Position numbers and translations under genes: made by a program. The notes under the pieces are model-generated. The model was given only the letters and a program-made list of their open reading frames with translations. It was not told the origin of the DNA and made no database searches. A DNA stretch of 64,000 nt. It comes from Nocardia goodfellowii. GTDB lineage: Bacteria > Actinomycetota > Actinomycetes > Mycobacteriales > Mycobacteriaceae. How positions within the stretch are numbered: the first letter of the stretch is position 1; every line of letters starts with the position of its first letter. This document shows positions 8,089-38,661 of the stretch, piece by piece. The stretch spans positions 1,922,001-1,986,000 of the forward strand of contig NZ_JAGGMR010000001.1 in NCBI RefSeq assembly GCF_017875645.1, read 5' to 3'.

Positions 8089-8225
8089 GGTGGCACGCGA
8101 CCCGCTTGCCGAGGCTGCGGAAGCGCCCCCTGAAATCCGACACTTCGACCATGGCACCGGACCGCCCCGGGCCAGAGGACGAGCGAAACCGGACCTCGAG
8201 CAGTCCGGAACCGAGGAGCCGACAC

Positions 8226-9137
8226 GTGACAGAGCAGCATGAGGCGCCGGGCGGCGTCTCCGGCAGGGCTCTGCAGAAGGTGTCCACGAAGGACATCCCA
8301 CAAGCCACCGTAGCGCGGTTGGCTACCTACCTCCGGGTCCTCGCCATGTTGGCCGACGACGGAGTACTCATCGTATCGAGTGAGGAACTCGCTGTCGCGG
8401 CGGGTGTCAATTCCGCCAAGTTGCGCAAGGATCTCTCGTTCCTCGGGCCCAACGGCGTACGGGGTGTCGGCTATGACGTGGCCAAGTTGCGCACCAGGAT
8501 CGAAGATGTGCTCGGACTCTCCGGAGGACATCGCGTGGTGCTCGTCGGCGCCGGAAACCTGGGCCGGGCCCTGGTCGGCTACGGCGGGTTCAAGCGGCGT
8601 GGCTTCACCGTGGTCGGCGTCTTCGATCACGACCCGCAGGTGATCGGGCTGACGGTCGCCGGACTGAAGGTCCGCGATGTCGCCGAATTGCCCACCGCCG
8701 TCGCGCAACTGGAGCCGACCATCGCGGTCATCACCGTGCCCGACGCGGCCGCCCAGGACGTGTGCGACCTGCTGGTCGCGGCCGGGCTGCAATCCATTCT
8801 CAGCTTCTCCCCGTCGGTGCTGTCGGCCCCGGAATCGGTGGAGGTTCGCCGGGTCGATCTCGCGGTGGAGATGCAGATGCTCTCCTTCGAACGCACCCGC
8901 AACCTCGAGTCCGACACCGCGGCGGAGGCAGCGGCCCTGCCCGTGGCGCACGCCGGATCGGGCCGGATCGCCCGTCGCGTGCCGCCCGCCGCGCACCGGG
9001 CCATCGAACACACGAAGTCCTCGCATCAGGCAACGGAGCCGCCCCGACCGGAGGTCCAAGGCGGACCGCGCCGCAGCCTGGGGGGTGTGGGGGTAGCCCC
9101 CACTGGAGACAGCAAGGGATCGGTGGTTACCCCGTGA
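8226..9137 (+). CDS. rex: Redox-sensing transcriptional repressor Rex
   Basis: Rex binds DNA when NADH/NAD+ is low and releases it when NADH rises. From GTG 8226 (GAGGAG 7 bases upstream) the protein has 303 residues: an N-terminal winged helix (IPQATVARLATYLRVL, then AGVNSAKLRKDLS at about 59-71) and a Rossmann domain with VLVGAGNLGRALVGYGGF at about 105-121. The C-terminal tail of about 90 residues beyond the core is longer than usual, low in complexity, and ends in sequence encoded by a perfect 7-bp hairpin repeat. It heads the hem operon and has its own operator 150 bases upstream. Its stop overlaps the start of a mini-ORF. Confidence 0.93.
   Translation: MTEQHEAPGGVSGRALQKVSTKDIPQATVARLATYLRVLAMLADDGVLIVSSEELAVAAGVNSAKLRKDLSFLGPNGVRGVGYDVAKLRTRIEDVLGLSGGHRVVLVGAGNLGRALVGYGGFKRRGFTVVGVFDHDPQVIGLTVAGLKVRDVAELPTAVAQLEPTIAVITVPDAAAQDVCDLLVAAGLQSILSFSPSVLSAPESVEVRRVDLAVEMQMLSFERTRNLESDTAAEAAALPVAHAGSGRIARRVPPAAHRAIEHTKSSHQATEPPRPEVQGGPRRSLGGVGVAPTGDSKGSVVTP
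9087..9103 (+). repeat. Hairpin repeat inside the rex C-terminal tail
   Basis: GTGGGGG, TAG, CCCCCAC forms a perfect 7-bp stem with a 3-base loop. It lies within a G/C-run-rich segment encoding the low-complexity end of Rex, just before the coupled mini-ORF element. Confidence 0.5.
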
Positions 9138-9214
9138 GTGAGCGCAGCGAACGAACCATGTGCCAGCGTGCGACGCGCACGCCGGAGCCGAGCGTTAGCG
9201 AGGCGCAGGCGTGA
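9134..9214 (+). repeat. MIRU-like 77-bp element with a coupled 26-residue mini-ORF (rex/hemA)
   Basis: GTG at 9134 overlaps the rex stop (GTGA), and the mini-ORF stop TGA at 9212-9214 overlaps the hemA GTG at 9211 (GTGA). The 27 codons between encode MSERSERTM...SVSEAQA. Length is exactly 81 bases, that is a 77-base unit plus a duplicated GTGA. Its first 27 bases match the element at 38661-38635 (minus strand) at 24 positions. Organisation is that described for MIRUs of mycobacteria: small ORFs inserted at DTGA coupling sites in operons. The peptide may matter only for ribosome transit. Confidence 0.75.
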
Positions 9215-10611
9215 GCGTTCTTCTTGTCGGCATTTCGCACCGGAGTGCACCGGTCTCCGTCTTGGAGAAGGTGGCGATCACCGACGCCGACCGGCCCAAG
9301 CTGATCGACCGCATGCTGGAATCCAGCCATGTCTCCGAGGCGATGATCGTCTCCACCTGCAACCGGGTGGAGATCTACGCGGTGGTCGACGCCTTCCACG
9401 GTGGTCTCGCCGAGGTCGGCGAACTGCTCACCAAGCATTCGGGCATGCCGCTGCCGGATCTGACCAAGCACGCCTATGTCCGCTACAGCGAGGCCGCCGC
9501 CGAGCATCTGTTCGCGGTGGCCAGCGGGCTGGATTCGATGGTGATCGGCGAGCAGCAGGTGCTCAGCCAGATCCGCAGCGCCTACGCCACCGCCGACGCG
9601 CAGCAGGCCGTCGGCCGCACGCTGCACGAACTCGCGCAGCACGCGCTGCGGGTCGGCAAGCGGGTGCATTCGGAGACCGGGATCGACCGGGCCGGCGCGT
9701 CCGTGGTGTCGGTGGCCTTGGACCGGGCGCAGCAGGTGCTGGGCTCGATCGCGGGCCGCACCGCCGTCGTGGTCGGTGCGGGCGCGATGGGAAGCCTTGC
9801 GGTAGCGCATCTTTCGCGGGCCGGCATCGGCCGGATCATTGTGGTGAACCGCACCGTGGACCGCGCGCAGCGGCTCGCCGACACCGCGGGTACCTACGGC
9901 GTCGAGTCCAGTGCGCTGGAACTTTCCCGGTTGACCGAGGCGATGGCCGCGGCCGATGTCGTGATCACCTGTACCGGCGCGGTCGGCGCCGTGGTGACGC
10001 TCGCGGATACGCACCGGGCGCTGGCCGACCGCGATCGGGCCGCCGCTTCGGCTCGTCCGCTGGTGTTCTGCGATCTCGGACTGCCTCGCGATGTGGAGCA
10101 CGCGGTGGCGGGGCTGCCGGATGTGACGGTCATCGATATCGAGACGCTGCAGCGTGATCCGGCCGCCGGTGCGGCCGCCGACGACACCGCCGCCGCGCGT
10201 TCGATCGTCGCCGACGAACTCGCCAAGTACCTCGCGGGCCAGCGTATGGCCGAGGTCACCCCGACGGTCGCGGCGCTGCGTCAGCGCGCGGCCGAGGTGG
10301 TGGAAGCCGAACTGCTGCGGCTGGATTCGCGCCTGCCTTCGCTGGCCGATCCGGAACGCGACGAGGTGGCGCGCACGGTGCGCCGGGTGGTCGACAAGTT
10401 GCTACACGCGCCGACGGTGCGGGTCAAGCAGTTGGCGTCCACGCCCGGCGGAGACAGCTACGCCGAAGCGCTGCGCGAACTGTTCGAACTCAAACCCGGT
10501 GCGGCACAGGCCGTCGCGGCGCCGATGGAGATCTCCGCGCTGGCCGGTGAACCGAGTCTGGCCGACGACTTCACGGCCGGGCATCTCGGTGACGAGGAGG
10601 CCCAGGCATGA
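9211..10611 (+). CDS. hemA: Glutamyl-tRNA reductase
   Basis: The 466-residue enzyme converts Glu-tRNA to glutamate-1-semialdehyde with NADPH, the first committed step of C5-pathway tetrapyrrole synthesis. The thioester-forming Cys50 lies in [19 protein letters not shown] near 112 and the NADPH-binding [12 protein letters not shown] near 188 follow, with a C-terminal dimerisation helix domain from about 330. It starts at GTG 9211 inside the end of the coupled mini-ORF, and its stop overlaps the hemC start (ATGA at 10608). Expression should follow Rex. The last 40 residues are a variable tail. Confidence 0.97.
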
Positions 10612-11720
10612 CCGCGTCCACCAATTCCAGGCCGACCGATGCCAGGCCCACCAATTCCAGCGGCTCCGCCGCCATGGCTCAGGAAATCGAGGGCAACGTG
10701 ACAACCCGCGGCACTTGGCGTATCGGCACCCGGGGCAGCCTGCTGGCGCTGACCCAGTCCGGCACTGTGCGCGACGCGCTCATCGCCGCCGGACACGACG
10801 CCGAACTAGTGGTGGTGAAGACGCCCGGCGATCTGTCGTCGGATCCGGTCGCCAAGATCGGCGTCGGCGTCTTCACCTCGGCCCTGCGCGACGAGCTGGC
10901 CGCCGGGACCATCGACATCGCGGTGCACTCCTACAAAGACCTGCCCACCGCGCCGGACCCGCGTTTCACCATCGCCGCCATCCCGCTCCGCGAGGATCCG
11001 CGCGACGCGCTGGTGGCCCGGGACGGACTGGTGCTCGGTGAACTGCCCGCCGGTTCGCGCGTCGGCACCTCCGCGCCGCGGCGTGCCGCGCAGCTGCGGG
11101 CGCTGGGCCTCGGCCTGAACATCGTGCCGTTGCGCGGCAACCTCGACACCCGTCTGCGCAAGGTCGCCGAGGGCGAACTCGACGCGGTGGTCGTCGCCCG
11201 GGCCGGCCTGGCCCGGATCGAACGCACCGACGCGGTGACCGAGGCGCTGGAACCCGTGCAGATGCTGCCCGCGCCCGCCCAGGGTGCGCTCGCGGTCGAG
11301 TGCCGCAGCTCGGACACCGCCCTGATCGAGGTGCTGACCAGGCTCGACGATGCCGCCACCCGCGCGGCGATCACCGCCGAGCGCGCACTGCTTGCCGAAC
11401 TGGAGGCCGGTTGCACGGCCCCGATCGGCGCGCTCGCCGAGGTCGTCGAATCACTCGACGACGACGGCCGGATCGTCGACGAACTTTCGCTACGCGCGTG
11501 CGCGGCCGCCATCGACGGGTCCGATGTCATCCGGGCCTCGAGCGTCGGTTCGCCGGAGAACGCCGCTGAGATCGGCCGCGCGCTGGCCCGTGAATTGCTG
11601 GAGCTCGGTGCCCGCGAGCTGCTCAGCACCCCCGAACCGGCGCCCGGTTCATCCTCAGATGCGGTGAGTTCGCCCGCAACAGACTTCGCCAACCCGAGCC
11701 CAATGGAGAACAGCCAATGA
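10608..11720 (+). CDS. hemC: Porphobilinogen deaminase (hydroxymethylbilane synthase)
   Basis: HemC polymerises four porphobilinogens into hydroxymethylbilane. The catalytic core begins at [11 protein letters not shown] (about residue 38); [10 protein letters not shown] near 105 carries the catalytic Asp, LRGNLDTRL near 175 the arginine motif, and Cys269 in [11 protein letters not shown] binds the dipyrromethane cofactor. The 370-residue product has an N-terminal extension of about 36 residues containing an internal short repeat ([11 protein letters not shown]), and a 40-residue low-complexity tail. GTG at 10698 could be an alternative start near the core. ATGA overlaps couple it to hemA upstream and to a mini-ORF downstream. 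Confidence 0.95.
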
Positions 11721-11797
11721 GCGAGCCCCGCGAGCGGATCAATGGCACAGCGCCTTCGGGCCTGCTGGAACTGAGCGTCAGCGAGGTGCAAGCATGA
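11717..11797 (+). repeat. MIRU-like 77-bp element with a coupled 26-residue mini-ORF (hemC/hemD)
   Basis: ATG at 11717 overlaps the hemC stop (ATGA), and the mini-ORF stop at 11795-11797 overlaps the hemD ATG (ATGA). The peptide reads [11 protein letters not shown]...LSVSEVQA, 26 residues. Both the length and the two ends (MSE.., SVSE.QA) match the element between rex and hemA. Two copies in one operon, both exactly at stop-start overlaps, support a site-specific insertion history. Confidence 0.75.
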
Positions 11798-13362
11798 GCC
11801 GCGCTACCAAGAAGCAACCCGGCCGGATTCTCTTCGTGGGGTCGGGGCCCGGCGACCCGGCGTTGCTCACCGTGCGTGCGCGTGAGGTGCTGGGCCGCGC
11901 GACGCTGGCCTTCACCGACCCCGATGTCGACAAGGGCGTGCTCGCCCTCATCGGCAGCGCGGTCGAGGAGAACGAGGACGGCACCCGCCCGGTGGATGTG
12001 CGGCCCGCGCTCGGCGAGCCCGCCGAGGTCGCCAAGACGCTGATCGCCGAGGCCCGCAACGGCCACGACGTGGTCCGTGTCGTCGCGGGCGATCCGCTGA
12101 CCACCGATTCGGTGATCACCGAGGTCAACACCGTCACCCGTTCGCACATGGTGTTCGAGGTGCTGCCCGGCCTGCCGAACGCCTCCGCGGTGCCCAGCTA
12201 CGCCGGCATCGCGCTCGGCTCCGGCCACACCGAAGCCGACGTGCGCGGCGAGGTCGACTGGGCCGCGCTGGCCGCGGCGCCCGGCCCGCTGGTGCTGCAC
12301 GCCACCTCCGGCCACCTCGCCGAAACCGCCAGTGCCCTGGTGGAACACGGTATGGCCTCGCAGACTCCGGTCGCGGTGACGGTGCGTGGCACCACTCGTC
12401 AGCAGCGCACCATCGAAGCGACTTTGGCCACCCTGAACAGCGCCGCCTCCGAACTCGTCGGCCCGCTGATCGTGACCATCGGCAAGGTCGTCGCCGCGCG
12501 TTCGAAGATGTCGTGGTGGGAATCGCGTGCCCTGTACGGCTGGACCGTGCTGGTGCCGCGCACCAAGGATCAGGCCGCCGAGATGAGCGAACGTCTCGTC
12601 ACGCACGGCGCCATCCCGATGGAGGTGCCGACCATCGCGGTCGAGCCGCCGCGTAGCCCCGCCCAGATGGAACGCGCGGTCAAGGGTTTGGTCGACGGCC
12701 GCTACCAGTGGGTGGTGTTCACCTCCACCAACGCGGTGCGCGCGGTGTGGGAGAAGTTCGCCGAATTCGGTTTGGACGCACGCGCTTTCAGTGGTGTGAA
12801 GATCGCCTGTGTGGGTGAGGCCACCGCGGAGAAGGTGCGCTCGTTCGGCATCAATCCCGAACTGGTGCCGTCGGGGGAGCAGTCCTCCGAGGGTCTGCTC
12901 GCCGACTTCCCGCCCTACGACGACGTTTTCGATCCGGTCAACCGGGTGCTGCTGCCGCGCGCGGACATCGCGACGGAGACCCTGGCCGAGGGTCTGCGTG
13001 ATCGCGGCTGGGAGATCGACGACGTCACCGCCTATCGCACGGTGCGTGCTTCGCCGCCGCCCGCCGAGACCCGCGAGATGATCAAGACCGGCGGGTTCGA
13101 CGCGGTGCTGTTCACCTCCTCCTCGACGGTGCGCAACCTGGTCGGCATCGCGGGTAAGCCGCACGCCCGCACCATCGTGGCCTGCATCGGACCGAAGACC
13201 GCCGAGACGGCCATCGAATTCGGCTTGCGTGTGGATGTGCAGCCGGAGACGGCGCAGGTCGGCCCGCTGGTCGAGGCGCTGGCCGAGCACGCGGCGCGGC
13301 TGCGTGCGGAAGGACTGCTGCCGCCGCCGCGCAAGAAGAGCCGGCGTAGCAGCAGCCGATAG
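11794..13362 (+). CDS. hemD: Uroporphyrinogen-III C-methyltransferase / uroporphyrinogen-III synthase fusion
   Basis: The 522-residue protein has an N-terminal CobA/SUMT-like domain (about 10-245; GSGPGDPALLTVRA at the SAM-binding start, VVAGDPLTTD near 95) and a C-terminal HemD domain (about 255-510; YGWTVLVPRTKDQA, VVFTSTNAVRAVWE, LFTSSSTVRNL). It would close hydroxymethylbilane to uroporphyrinogen III and, through the N-domain, may feed sirohaem/cobalamin synthesis. The first domain has diverged from active CobA in places, so methyltransferase activity is less certain. It is the last gene of the rex-hemACD operon, followed by a strong terminator. Confidence 0.92.
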   Translation: MSRATKKQPGRILFVGSGPGDPALLTVRAREVLGRATLAFTDPDVDKGVLALIGSAVEENEDGTRPVDVRPALGEPAEVAKTLIAEARNGHDVVRVVAGDPLTTDSVITEVNTVTRSHMVFEVLPGLPNASAVPSYAGIALGSGHTEADVRGEVDWAALAAAPGPLVLHATSGHLAETASALVEHGMASQTPVAVTVRGTTRQQRTIEATLATLNSAASELVGPLIVTIGKVVAARSKMSWWESRALYGWTVLVPRTKDQAAEMSERLVTHGAIPMEVPTIAVEPPRSPAQMERAVKGLVDGRYQWVVFTSTNAVRAVWEKFAEFGLDARAFSGVKIACVGEATAEKVRSFGINPELVPSGEQSSEGLLADFPPYDDVFDPVNRVLLPRADIATETLAEGLRDRGWEIDDVTAYRTVRASPPPAETREMIKTGGFDAVLFTSSSTVRNLVGIAGKPHARTIVACIGPKTAETAIEFGLRVDVQPETAQVGPLVEALAEHAARLRAEGLLPPPRKKSRRSSSR

Positions 13363-37420: not shown

Positions 37421-38584
37421 CTAGCTCGGCGTGTGCTGGCTGAGCAGCAGTTCGCGGACCGCCGCGCGGTTGGGCTTGCCGGGGCCGTGTAGCGGGAGTT
37501 CGTCCAGGATCGCGAGTTCGCGAGGCGCGGCGATGGTGTCGAGCTCCCGGACGACGTGGTCGCGGAGTTCGTCGAGGGTGGGATTCGCGCCCTTGGCGGG
37601 GACGACGGCCACCGCGACGCGCTGACCGAGTCGTTCGTCGGGCAGGCCCAGCACCACGCATTCGCTGATCGACGGGTGGGTGCCGAGCACGGCCTCGACT
37701 ACCTGCGGAATCACCAGAAGCCCGCCGGTCATGATGGCTTCGTCGAGCCGGCCGCTGATGGAGAGGACGCCGTTCTCGTAGGTGCCCGCGTCCTCGGTGC
37801 GGAACCAGCCGGGTTCGGCGAAGGCGGGATGGTCGGGCTGGTTGCGGTATCCGACGGCGATCAGGGTGCCGCCGAGGACGACCCGCCCGTCCTCGATGCG
37901 AACCTTGGTGCCGTCCAGCGGAACGCCGTCGTAGACGCACCCGCCACAGGTTTCGCTCATGCCGTAGGTGCGGACCACGTTGATGCCCTCGGCTTTAGCG
38001 CGTTCGTATACATGCGGGGGAGTGGCCGCGCCGCCGACCAGGACGCCGTCGAGTTCGGCGAGGGCCGCGGCGGCGACGGGGGCATCGAGGGCCTTGATGA
38101 GCTGGGTCGGGACCAGCGCGGTGTAGCGGCGCGGTCCGCGCATTCCGGAGATGGCTCCCGCCAGCGCTTCCGGGAGGAAGCCGCCCGAGACGTCGAGCAC
38201 CGTCGGCTCGGTACCGGCCTGAATGCTGCGCAGCAGCACCTGGATTCCGGCGATGTGATGGGTCGGCAACGCCAGCAGCCAGCTGCCCGGCCCGCCCAGT
38301 CGTTCGTGGGTGGCGGCGCCGCTGGCGCGCAGGGCGGCCGCGCTGAGCATGGCGCCCTTCGGTACACCGGTGGTGCCGGAGGTGGTCACCACCAGCGCGA
38401 CTTCCTCGTCGATCGGCTCGCCCGGTCCGAGCGCGTCGGACAGCCGCCGCGCTTCCCGGCGGTCGCTGGTGGGGATCGGCAGCCACGCGGGGCCGTTGCC
38501 CTCCAACGCTTCCCGCAGATGCGGCAGAACATCGCCGACGCCGGACCCGGTGGGCATGGGCAGCGTGCGCAGGGTCCTACTCAC
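37421..38584 (-). CDS. menE: O-succinylbenzoic acid-CoA ligase
   Basis: MenE activates o-succinylbenzoate to its CoA thioester for MenB. The 387-residue adenylate-forming enzyme has the AMP motif TTSGTTGVPKGA near 69, NVVRTYGMSETCGG near 200 and the C-terminal GKPNRAAVREL Lys-containing segment near 367. It is shorter than plant or Bacillus MenE but typical for actinobacteria. The start GTG 38584 overlaps the stop of an upstream coupled mini-ORF (GTGA). A 7-bp hairpin (CGCCGAG/CTCGGCG) spans its stop codon. Confidence 0.93.
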   Translation of the reverse strand: MSRTLRTLPMPTGSGVGDVLPHLREALEGNGPAWLPIPTSDRREARRLSDALGPGEPIDEEVALVVTTSGTTGVPKGAMLSAAALRASGAATHERLGGPGSWLLALPTHHIAGIQVLLRSIQAGTEPTVLDVSGGFLPEALAGAISGMRGPRRYTALVPTQLIKALDAPVAAAALAELDGVLVGGAATPPHVYERAKAEGINVVRTYGMSETCGGCVYDGVPLDGTKVRIEDGRVVLGGTLIAVGYRNQPDHPAFAEPGWFRTEDAGTYENGVLSISGRLDEAIMTGGLLVIPQVVEAVLGTHPSISECVVLGLPDERLGQRVAVAVVPAKGANPTLDELRDHVVRELDTIAAPRELAILDELPLHGPGKPNRAAVRELLLSQHTPS

Positions 38585-38661
38585 GACTCCGCCTCGCCTG
38601 CCATTGATCCAGCCGTGCCCAGAGGCAAGGAGCCCATGGTTCGATCGCTGCGCCCTCTCAC
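38581..38661 (-). repeat. MIRU-like 77-bp element with a coupled 26-residue mini-ORF (before menE)
   Basis: On the minus strand GTG 38661 opens 27 codons ending in TGA at 38583-38581, which overlaps the menE GTG. The peptide is MRGRSDRTMGS...GSMAGEAES. Length (81 bases) equals the two hem-operon elements, and the first 27 bases match the rex/hemA copy at 24 positions. Unlike those, no recognisable gene ends at its upstream GTGA. Confidence 0.7.

Follow-up and report, generated by a model that had tools for sequence, protein, structure and literature searches.

What is a reading frame of 26 codons doing between rex and hemA in Nocardia goodfellowii, overlapping the gene on either side by four bases? 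The window in which it lies, the whole 64,000-nucleotide stretch of this genome analysed here, had been read once before, and the earlier note took the 81-bp frame for an element like the mycobacterial interspersed repetitive units (MIRUs), coupled to both genes and placed where it could tune HemA synthesis. From sequence comparison we suggest, with a probability of roughly 0.8, that it is one copy of a non-autonomous element dispersed in Nocardia, which inserts at the NTGA of a start codon, carries a mini-ORF coupled to the gene that follows and folds a hairpin over a GAGG and the start of that gene.

The rex-hemA copy and its surroundings

The rex ORF as listed (ORF list, family scans) occupies 8106-9137 on the forward strand, its real start probably lying later than the listed one. 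By direct reading of the sequence its TGA (9135-9137) falls within a GTGA at 9134-9137, which also holds the start codon of the mini-ORF. The mini-ORF runs from GTG 9134 to TGA 9212-9214 (26 codons plus stop), and its stop forms part of a second GTGA (9211-9214, +), in which the GTG at 9211 starts hemA (9211-10611, +), glutamyl-tRNA reductase according to NCBIfam; the ORF upstream is Rex. Coupling to both genes through GTGA overlaps and a length of 77 + 4 bases, as described earlier, are thus confirmed in the sequence: on sequence reading, BLAST and a model search, 9134-9214 (+) is an element copy consisting of a 77-base unit (9134-9210) and the terminal GTGA. Directly behind the first GTGA lies a 5' mini-hairpin of the GA-GC-GNA-GC-GA type (9138-9152, +), with some covariation across the family. 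A larger 3' hairpin (9178-9213, +) has an outer stem CACGCC/GGCGTG, an inner stem GCC/GGC, tandem GA mismatches and a GNNA tip, and encloses both the hemA start codon and an SD-like GAGG (9200-9203, +) that ends 7 bases before the hemA GTG.

Two further copies with units of 77 bases are found in the window. One, missed by the earlier note, is complete and belongs to the same operon (11717-11797, +), with ATGA at both ends, at the junction of hemC (10608-11720, +; named only by its position between hemA and hemD) and a hemD/cobA fusion (11794-13362, +; uroporphyrinogen-III synthase and C-methyltransferase by family scans). The other lies on the reverse strand (38581-38661, −), with GTGA at both ends, before menE (37421-38584, −), a gene of 387 codons for o-succinylbenzoate-CoA ligase (NCBIfam). 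The likeness already reported between the 5' ends of the menE and rex-hemA copies was found again when counted by eye (24 of 27 bases identical), and a 23-base 5' pattern, three mismatches being allowed, occurs twice in the window against 0.00 expected from 100 window shuffles. An Rfam scan of 8900-12000 returned two matches at E ≤ 1, both under the gathering score and neither on an element. At its C-terminal end (9048-9109) the host rex contains about 60 extra bases, missing by eye from the element-empty relatives compared; they include the palindrome TGGGGGTAGCCCCCAC at 9088-9103, which occurs once in the host genome and in none of four other genomes.

Dispersal and site occupancy

With the single 81-mer as query, BLAST found 18 places in the host genome at E ≤ 0.001, one of them the query itself. 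A sequence model built from 17 host copies, which match by construction, raised the number to 39 at this threshold and to 61 at E ≤ 1. A search of 301 family genomes under strict filters gave matches in 24 of the 29 from the host genus and in 7 of 272 others, six of these seven having a single weak match. Via named loci a further view was gained of 37 genomes, in which 27 of 28 Nocardia had matches at E ≤ 0.001 (106 in N. pseudovaccinii, 83 in N. pneumoniae, 64 in N. anaemiae, 62 in N. amikacinitolerans); N. higoensis had none at this threshold, nor had any of nine related genomes (Rhodococcus, Prescottella, Rhodococcoides, Aldersonia, Speluncibacter). The unit is therefore far from unique, with its 39 host places and 27 Nocardia genomes, and the earlier proposal that a MIRU-like unit with its small ORF is also dispersed outside mycobacteria is supported by these host and Nocardia matches. 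One genome of another genus of the family (G042) carries three copies of the same build (L186, L187, L234; units of 77, 77 and 65 bases). In genus g29, taken as Mycobacterium from its MIRU pattern, the Nocardia-type unit as such was not found among the 301 genomes, the model giving a single weak match in each of three. A truncated copy (L013 and L227, G000:C1:2456852-2456938) has a perfect 5' end that recurs 33 bases on; a 3' NTGA was looked for there and not found. The literature searched, mostly outside subscription journals, held no description of such elements in Nocardia; a survey of stem-loop families includes MIRU, and the accessible part of its text does not name Nocardia (PMC2267715).

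The earlier note had proposed tabulating occupied and empty sites. When the best 80 of 301 candidate named loci around hemA were scored (the states of L030, L049, L051, L053 and L064 being entered by hand), the rex-hemA junction was occupied in 14 of 52 Nocardia-type loci, window included, and the hemC-hemD junction in 16 of 51, once by a double unit; empty sites were clean. Both junctions were occupied in 8 loci, rex-hemA alone in 6, hemC-hemD alone in 7 and neither in 29, and in the non-Nocardia loci occupancy was 0/28 and 0/27 respectively. The sequence is thus no constant feature of the junction, 38 of 52 rex-hemA junctions being empty. N. pseudovaccinii (occupied) and N. anaemiae (empty) are exactly one 77-base unit apart, the sequence on either side being 94.0 and 94.4% identical. 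Of the rows in the HemA tree, the one closest to the host is N. amikacinitolerans, which is empty at both junctions. On the HemA tree (55 rows, 14 occupied and 41 empty) parsimony counts seven occupancy changes, at least four of them forced by well supported branches. The first bases of the 5' and 3' NTGA agree in 83 of 99 A/G pairs and differ in 16 (host copies alone, 19/24; p = 0.0045, a value that ignores relatedness), and this agreement suggests that the target NTGA may be duplicated. From the occupied and empty sites we infer that the element moves; at any single site, recombination may account for its spread.

Start codon, reading frame and hairpins

Twenty-nine host copies were read, leaving out L125, a partial copy adjoining L109, and 24 have an NTGA at each end with a mini-ORF between; L109, L111, L112, L114 and L118 do not fit. 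All 24 precede an open frame of at least 129 codons, and Pfam domains were found in 18 of the 20 downstream proteins scanned. The genes behind copies include those for PrmC, FtsY, GatB, a sigma factor, MurA, a carbamoyltransferase and MenE. Upstream, only 12 of the 24 have a frame of 100 or more open codons that runs into the first NTGA, so on these sequences the target is the start codon of a gene, with an overlapping stop optional. The earlier idea of insertion at DTGA stop-start sites consequently holds for the DTGA position and not for the stop, which is unneeded. Three copies (L016, L116, L181) start NTGAC in place of NTGAG, as do the genes behind them, and have G at unit position 19, which keeps the pair 5-19.

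For the frame, 106 units were parsed, namely 25 from the host, 68 from 60 stretches and 13 from named rex-hemA loci. The 60 stretches were the best-scoring among the matches listed in the 301-genome search, so that intact copies are favoured, and the unit counts are neither unbiased nor independent, being mostly of top-scoring matches, many of them related. Units of 77 bases (55) and 80 bases (25) predominate. Counted without regard to frame, the NTGA distances of single units are 38, 65, 68, 71, 74, 77, 80, 83 and 86, and those of fused arrays or longer forms 104, 152, 155, 161 and 242, all of which are 2 mod 3, a length that brings the mini-ORF stop onto the start of the gene; in L239 the distance is 226, splitting into frames of 146 and 80. 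In 99 of the 106 units the last TGA is precisely where the mini-ORF stops. The seven misses are five mis-parsed array pieces (L154, L161) together with L109 (79) and L162 (78), which are off 2 mod 3 and have just 11 and 23 codons open behind them. In L226 the first tandem unit is 73 bases by subtraction and its frame overruns the start of the second. Among 20 further, mostly weaker, stretches kept out of the parse and read separately, 10 have an NTGA pair, nine of these being in frame to the gene, and 10 have none.

Tandem arrays were found as 2 × 77 (L144), 3 × 77 (L154) and 2 × 80 bases (L148, L164), and as fused arrays of two to three units. At one start-codon site, shared by ten loci (L159, L160, L161, L168, L172, L178, L183, L184, L238, L239), the number of units ranges from one to three, and several of the loci have lost the inner NTGA and now read as one fused frame of 54 or 81 codons. 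The protein behind this site begins MSTLHKFKAY, and its N-terminal 168 residues gave no family match; we take it to be SepF-like.

Within units, stop triplets number 2 in the mini-ORF frame against 56 and 75 in the other two. Across 54 units of 77 bases, entropy at the three codon positions is 0.96, 0.89 and 1.00 overall. In the 5' arm it is 0.65, 0.72 and 1.11, the third position being more variable, and in the 3' arm 0.66, 0.71 and 0.56, the third being less variable. With this stop-triplet bias and flat overall entropy, the sequences indicate that the open frame and the 2 mod 3 length are kept and that the peptide as a whole is hardly conserved; protein-coding conservation, which the earlier note had asked about, leaves no overall third-position signal across the 77-base units. 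The 5' arm could be under weak coding constraint, or its third positions could be the loop and a loose pair of the 5' hairpin. A function of the peptide was considered and rejected, there being no overall codon-position signal.

The end of the unit carries an initiation signal. Among 96 distinct units, 66 have exactly 7 bases between the end of their last GAGG, AGGA or GGAG and the gene start, and 87 have such a tetramer 4-11 bases upstream of it, against 22% in shuffled sequence. The 3' hairpin comprises the 36 bases preceding the final A, in the order CAYGMC/GKCRTG, internal loop, GCC/GGC and a tip with tandem GA mismatches, GC/GC and a GNNA loop. RNAalifold, unprompted, predicts it on 77 distinct 3' ends (-15.5 kcal/mol), with changes on both sides in 6 of 10 pairs. 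In alignment A3, which excludes L109, L161, L162, L154 and short and identical units and includes the window copy as its sole named rex-hemA locus, the structure pairs 95.3% of 847 cells, against 87.0% when shuffled (0 of 500 shuffles reach it) and 17.8-45.3% when slid; double-change cells number 89 against 38.6 (0/500). On weaker measures the margin is smaller: pairs with a double change number 6 against 4.0 (14/500 shuffles reach this, and a slide of -3 gives 7), and further pair types 19 against 16.7 (8/500; slide -3 gives 20). The last 39 bases have a mean folding z of -2.64 over 95 units.

The host start codon takes part in this stem. Its first base matches unit position 47 as A-T in 56 and G-C in 25 of 94 distinct ends (Fisher 3e-14), or in 19 of 24 in the host alone (p = 0.0013), both p-values being inflated by relatedness. 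In the 15 units with unlike NTGA at their two ends, position 47 suits the 3' start 14 times and the 5' start never. Within the hairpin, G-T pairs outnumber A-C pairs by 88 to 16, which points to a structure acting on the sense strand. In context, predicted pairing over the 24 host copies averages 0.74 at the gene start, 0.58 at the mini-ORF start and 0.51 at the SD-like run, and the gene start falls below 0.3 in four of them. A repeat scan of the second window copy (11717-11797) returned no inverted repeat. The 5' mini-hairpin is smaller with the same type of tip, and its pair 9-15 is G-C in 50, A-T in 10 and broken in 12 of 73. The first structural idea, a variable hairpin at mid-unit, was dropped on a weak signal (mean z -0.52). 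The predicted covarying 3' hairpin, holding the SD-like GAGG and the RTG start of the gene, is newly found here.

Mechanism, alternatives and relation to MIRUs

A mechanism can be put forward that fits the dispersal, the empty and occupied sites, the start-codon position, the frame rule, the SD spacing and the covarying hairpin seen in the sequences. The element would insert at the NTGA of a start codon, in sense orientation, leaving an NTGA on either side. The old ribosome-binding site of the gene would then serve the mini-ORF, which would itself be translated and whose TGA overlaps the gene start, while the element would supply the GAGG 7 bases before that start, both being predicted to fold into the hairpin. 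A ribosome coming from the mini-ORF would open the hairpin, stop at the overlapping TGA and reinitiate, and the gene would be translated best by ribosomes just off the mini-ORF, perhaps obligately so. Through this termination-reinitiation coupling, insertion would be tolerable even in generally essential genes, at the cost of the coupling itself. This is the most likely way in which translation of the gene continues once the element has inserted.

Three other accounts have to be weighed against this one. The element might be a leader dedicated to hemA that senses redox or haem state through its peptide or the codons for it and adjusts HemA accordingly. Its place behind a redox repressor and ahead of the first haem enzyme, coupled at both ends and with a second copy in the same operon, is what would be expected. 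The patchy occupancy of the junction (empty in N. amikacinitolerans, among others), the lack of an overall coding signal in the mini-ORFs and the presence of the same unit before ftsY, gatB, murA, menE and further unrelated genes make it very improbable, and the tuning role first suggested is left unsupported. An account without transposition, in which ancient insertions were inherited vertically, lost in many lineages and spread by recombination, fits the grouping of occupied rows on the HemA tree beyond shuffled labels and the single site occupied in ten loci. We hold it to be improbable, since the number of matches ranges from 0 to 106 across 28 species genomes, close relatives differ by a clean 77-base unit and the two haem-operon sites are discordant where only one of them is occupied.

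The hairpins might also serve DNA mobility, presenting single-stranded ends to a recombinase while the outer stem reads the target RTG, and the frame rule would then reflect merely the loss of disruptive copies. Tips of the GNA or GNNA type are unusually stable in single-stranded DNA; here they occur with tandem GA at both ends of the unit, and the outer stem covaries with the start base. The excess of G-T over A-C pairs fits a sense-strand structure, though sense single-stranded DNA would match it equally, and the Y1 transposase family had no match in 15 of 16 genomes and one marginal partial match in the other, on which grounds a Y1 transposase was rejected as helper. Such a role seems rather unlikely to us, less so than either of the preceding accounts. 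REP/BIME sequences, which are associated with RAYT (Y1) transposases in the part of the source available (PMC2817692), are likewise short, dispersed and hairpin-bearing; the Nocardia element differs in its place at start codons, its open frame and the scarcity of Y1 matches just given. Miniature elements of the MITE type and the enterobacterial RU elements with ORFs, as described in the accessible parts of PMC2759123 and PMC2229807, are also small, non-autonomous and mobile, whereas the Nocardia element targets the start codon. Terminal inverted repeats, a MITE trait, were not found joining both unit ends in the four regions scanned, where hairpin arms lie inside the unit or extend into a flank.

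The closest parallel to the coupled start-codon element proposed here is the MIRU, on which a paper by Supply reportedly appeared in 1997. In the parts of the literature available, MIRUs are short dispersed units of 77 or 53 bases that form tandem arrays (PMC12548453, PMC4213456, PMC2734929); they appear mobile, with insertion at start codons and an ORF in -4 coupling (PMC12548453), and are given as confined to M. leprae and the M. tuberculosis complex (PMC4213456). A MIRU core pattern matched 20 of 401 family genomes, all of genus g29, and its reversed control none. As these 20 genomes are one per species, they suggest a range wider than the available part of that source states. Some of the MIRU loci (L188-L219, g29) form tandem arrays with a spacing of 51 to 55 bases. 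In 16 of 30 such loci an NTGA closes a mini-ORF of 50-77 bases; six lack the NTGA at the expected 5' place and eight do not fit (five read on, three stop elsewhere). Family scans place L204 and L212 before a response regulator, presumably RegX3. The MIRU basal stem pairs 5.0 of 6 positions over 33 distinct units against at most 2.9 when slid; in register 84.9% of cells are paired, and one column off 26.1%, no better than shuffled. It shows little covariation, one of six pairs beating every shuffle.

MIRUs and the Nocardia element are alike in being dispersed short units inserted at start codons, with NTGA ends, a -4 coupled mini-ORF, tandem arrays, an SD-like run, a basal stem and a GA-GC-GNA-GC-GA tip. 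They differ in sequence outside the tip, and a Nocardia unit carries such a hairpin twice, with a basal stem that includes the start codon, whereas the MIRU stem stops before it. Descent from a common ancestor would explain the shared NTGA ends, mini-ORF, arrays, SD-like run and tip, and the models cross-match weakly: the Nocardia model has a MIRU as its top match in 51 kb of MIRU loci (E 0.024), the second match not being one, and the MIRU model has its top four matches at elements in 53 kb of Nocardia loci (best E 0.018). Against this, pairwise alignment beats shuffles for just one of six MIRUs tried, the MIRU model finds eight places at E ≤ 1 in the host genome and none at elements, and the tip motif by itself is common in these genomes. 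Common ancestry is a respectable but doubtful reading. The element works like a MIRU but looks like a separate family, its sequence kinship falling below significance, and on the shared build and weak cross-matches we class it by its working, as MIRU-like; shared descent may or may not lie behind the likeness. Tentatively, the two may be branches of one start-codon-targeting class of mobile element whose hairpins share the GA-GC-GNA-GC-GA tip, in which the Nocardia hairpin is closed by the host start codon and insertion makes the gene dependent on coupling.

Start-codon insertion with a mini-ORF that hands over to the gene is not limited to mycobacteria. With up to 106 matches per genome, clean empty sites and tandem arrays, the questions that MIRUs raise (whether they move, whether the ORF is read, what they do to expression) become testable in Nocardia. 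A host start codon that covaries with a base of the element offers an argument from sequence only that the structure acts where translation begins, and the tandem arrays might be of use as VNTR markers in typing Nocardia.
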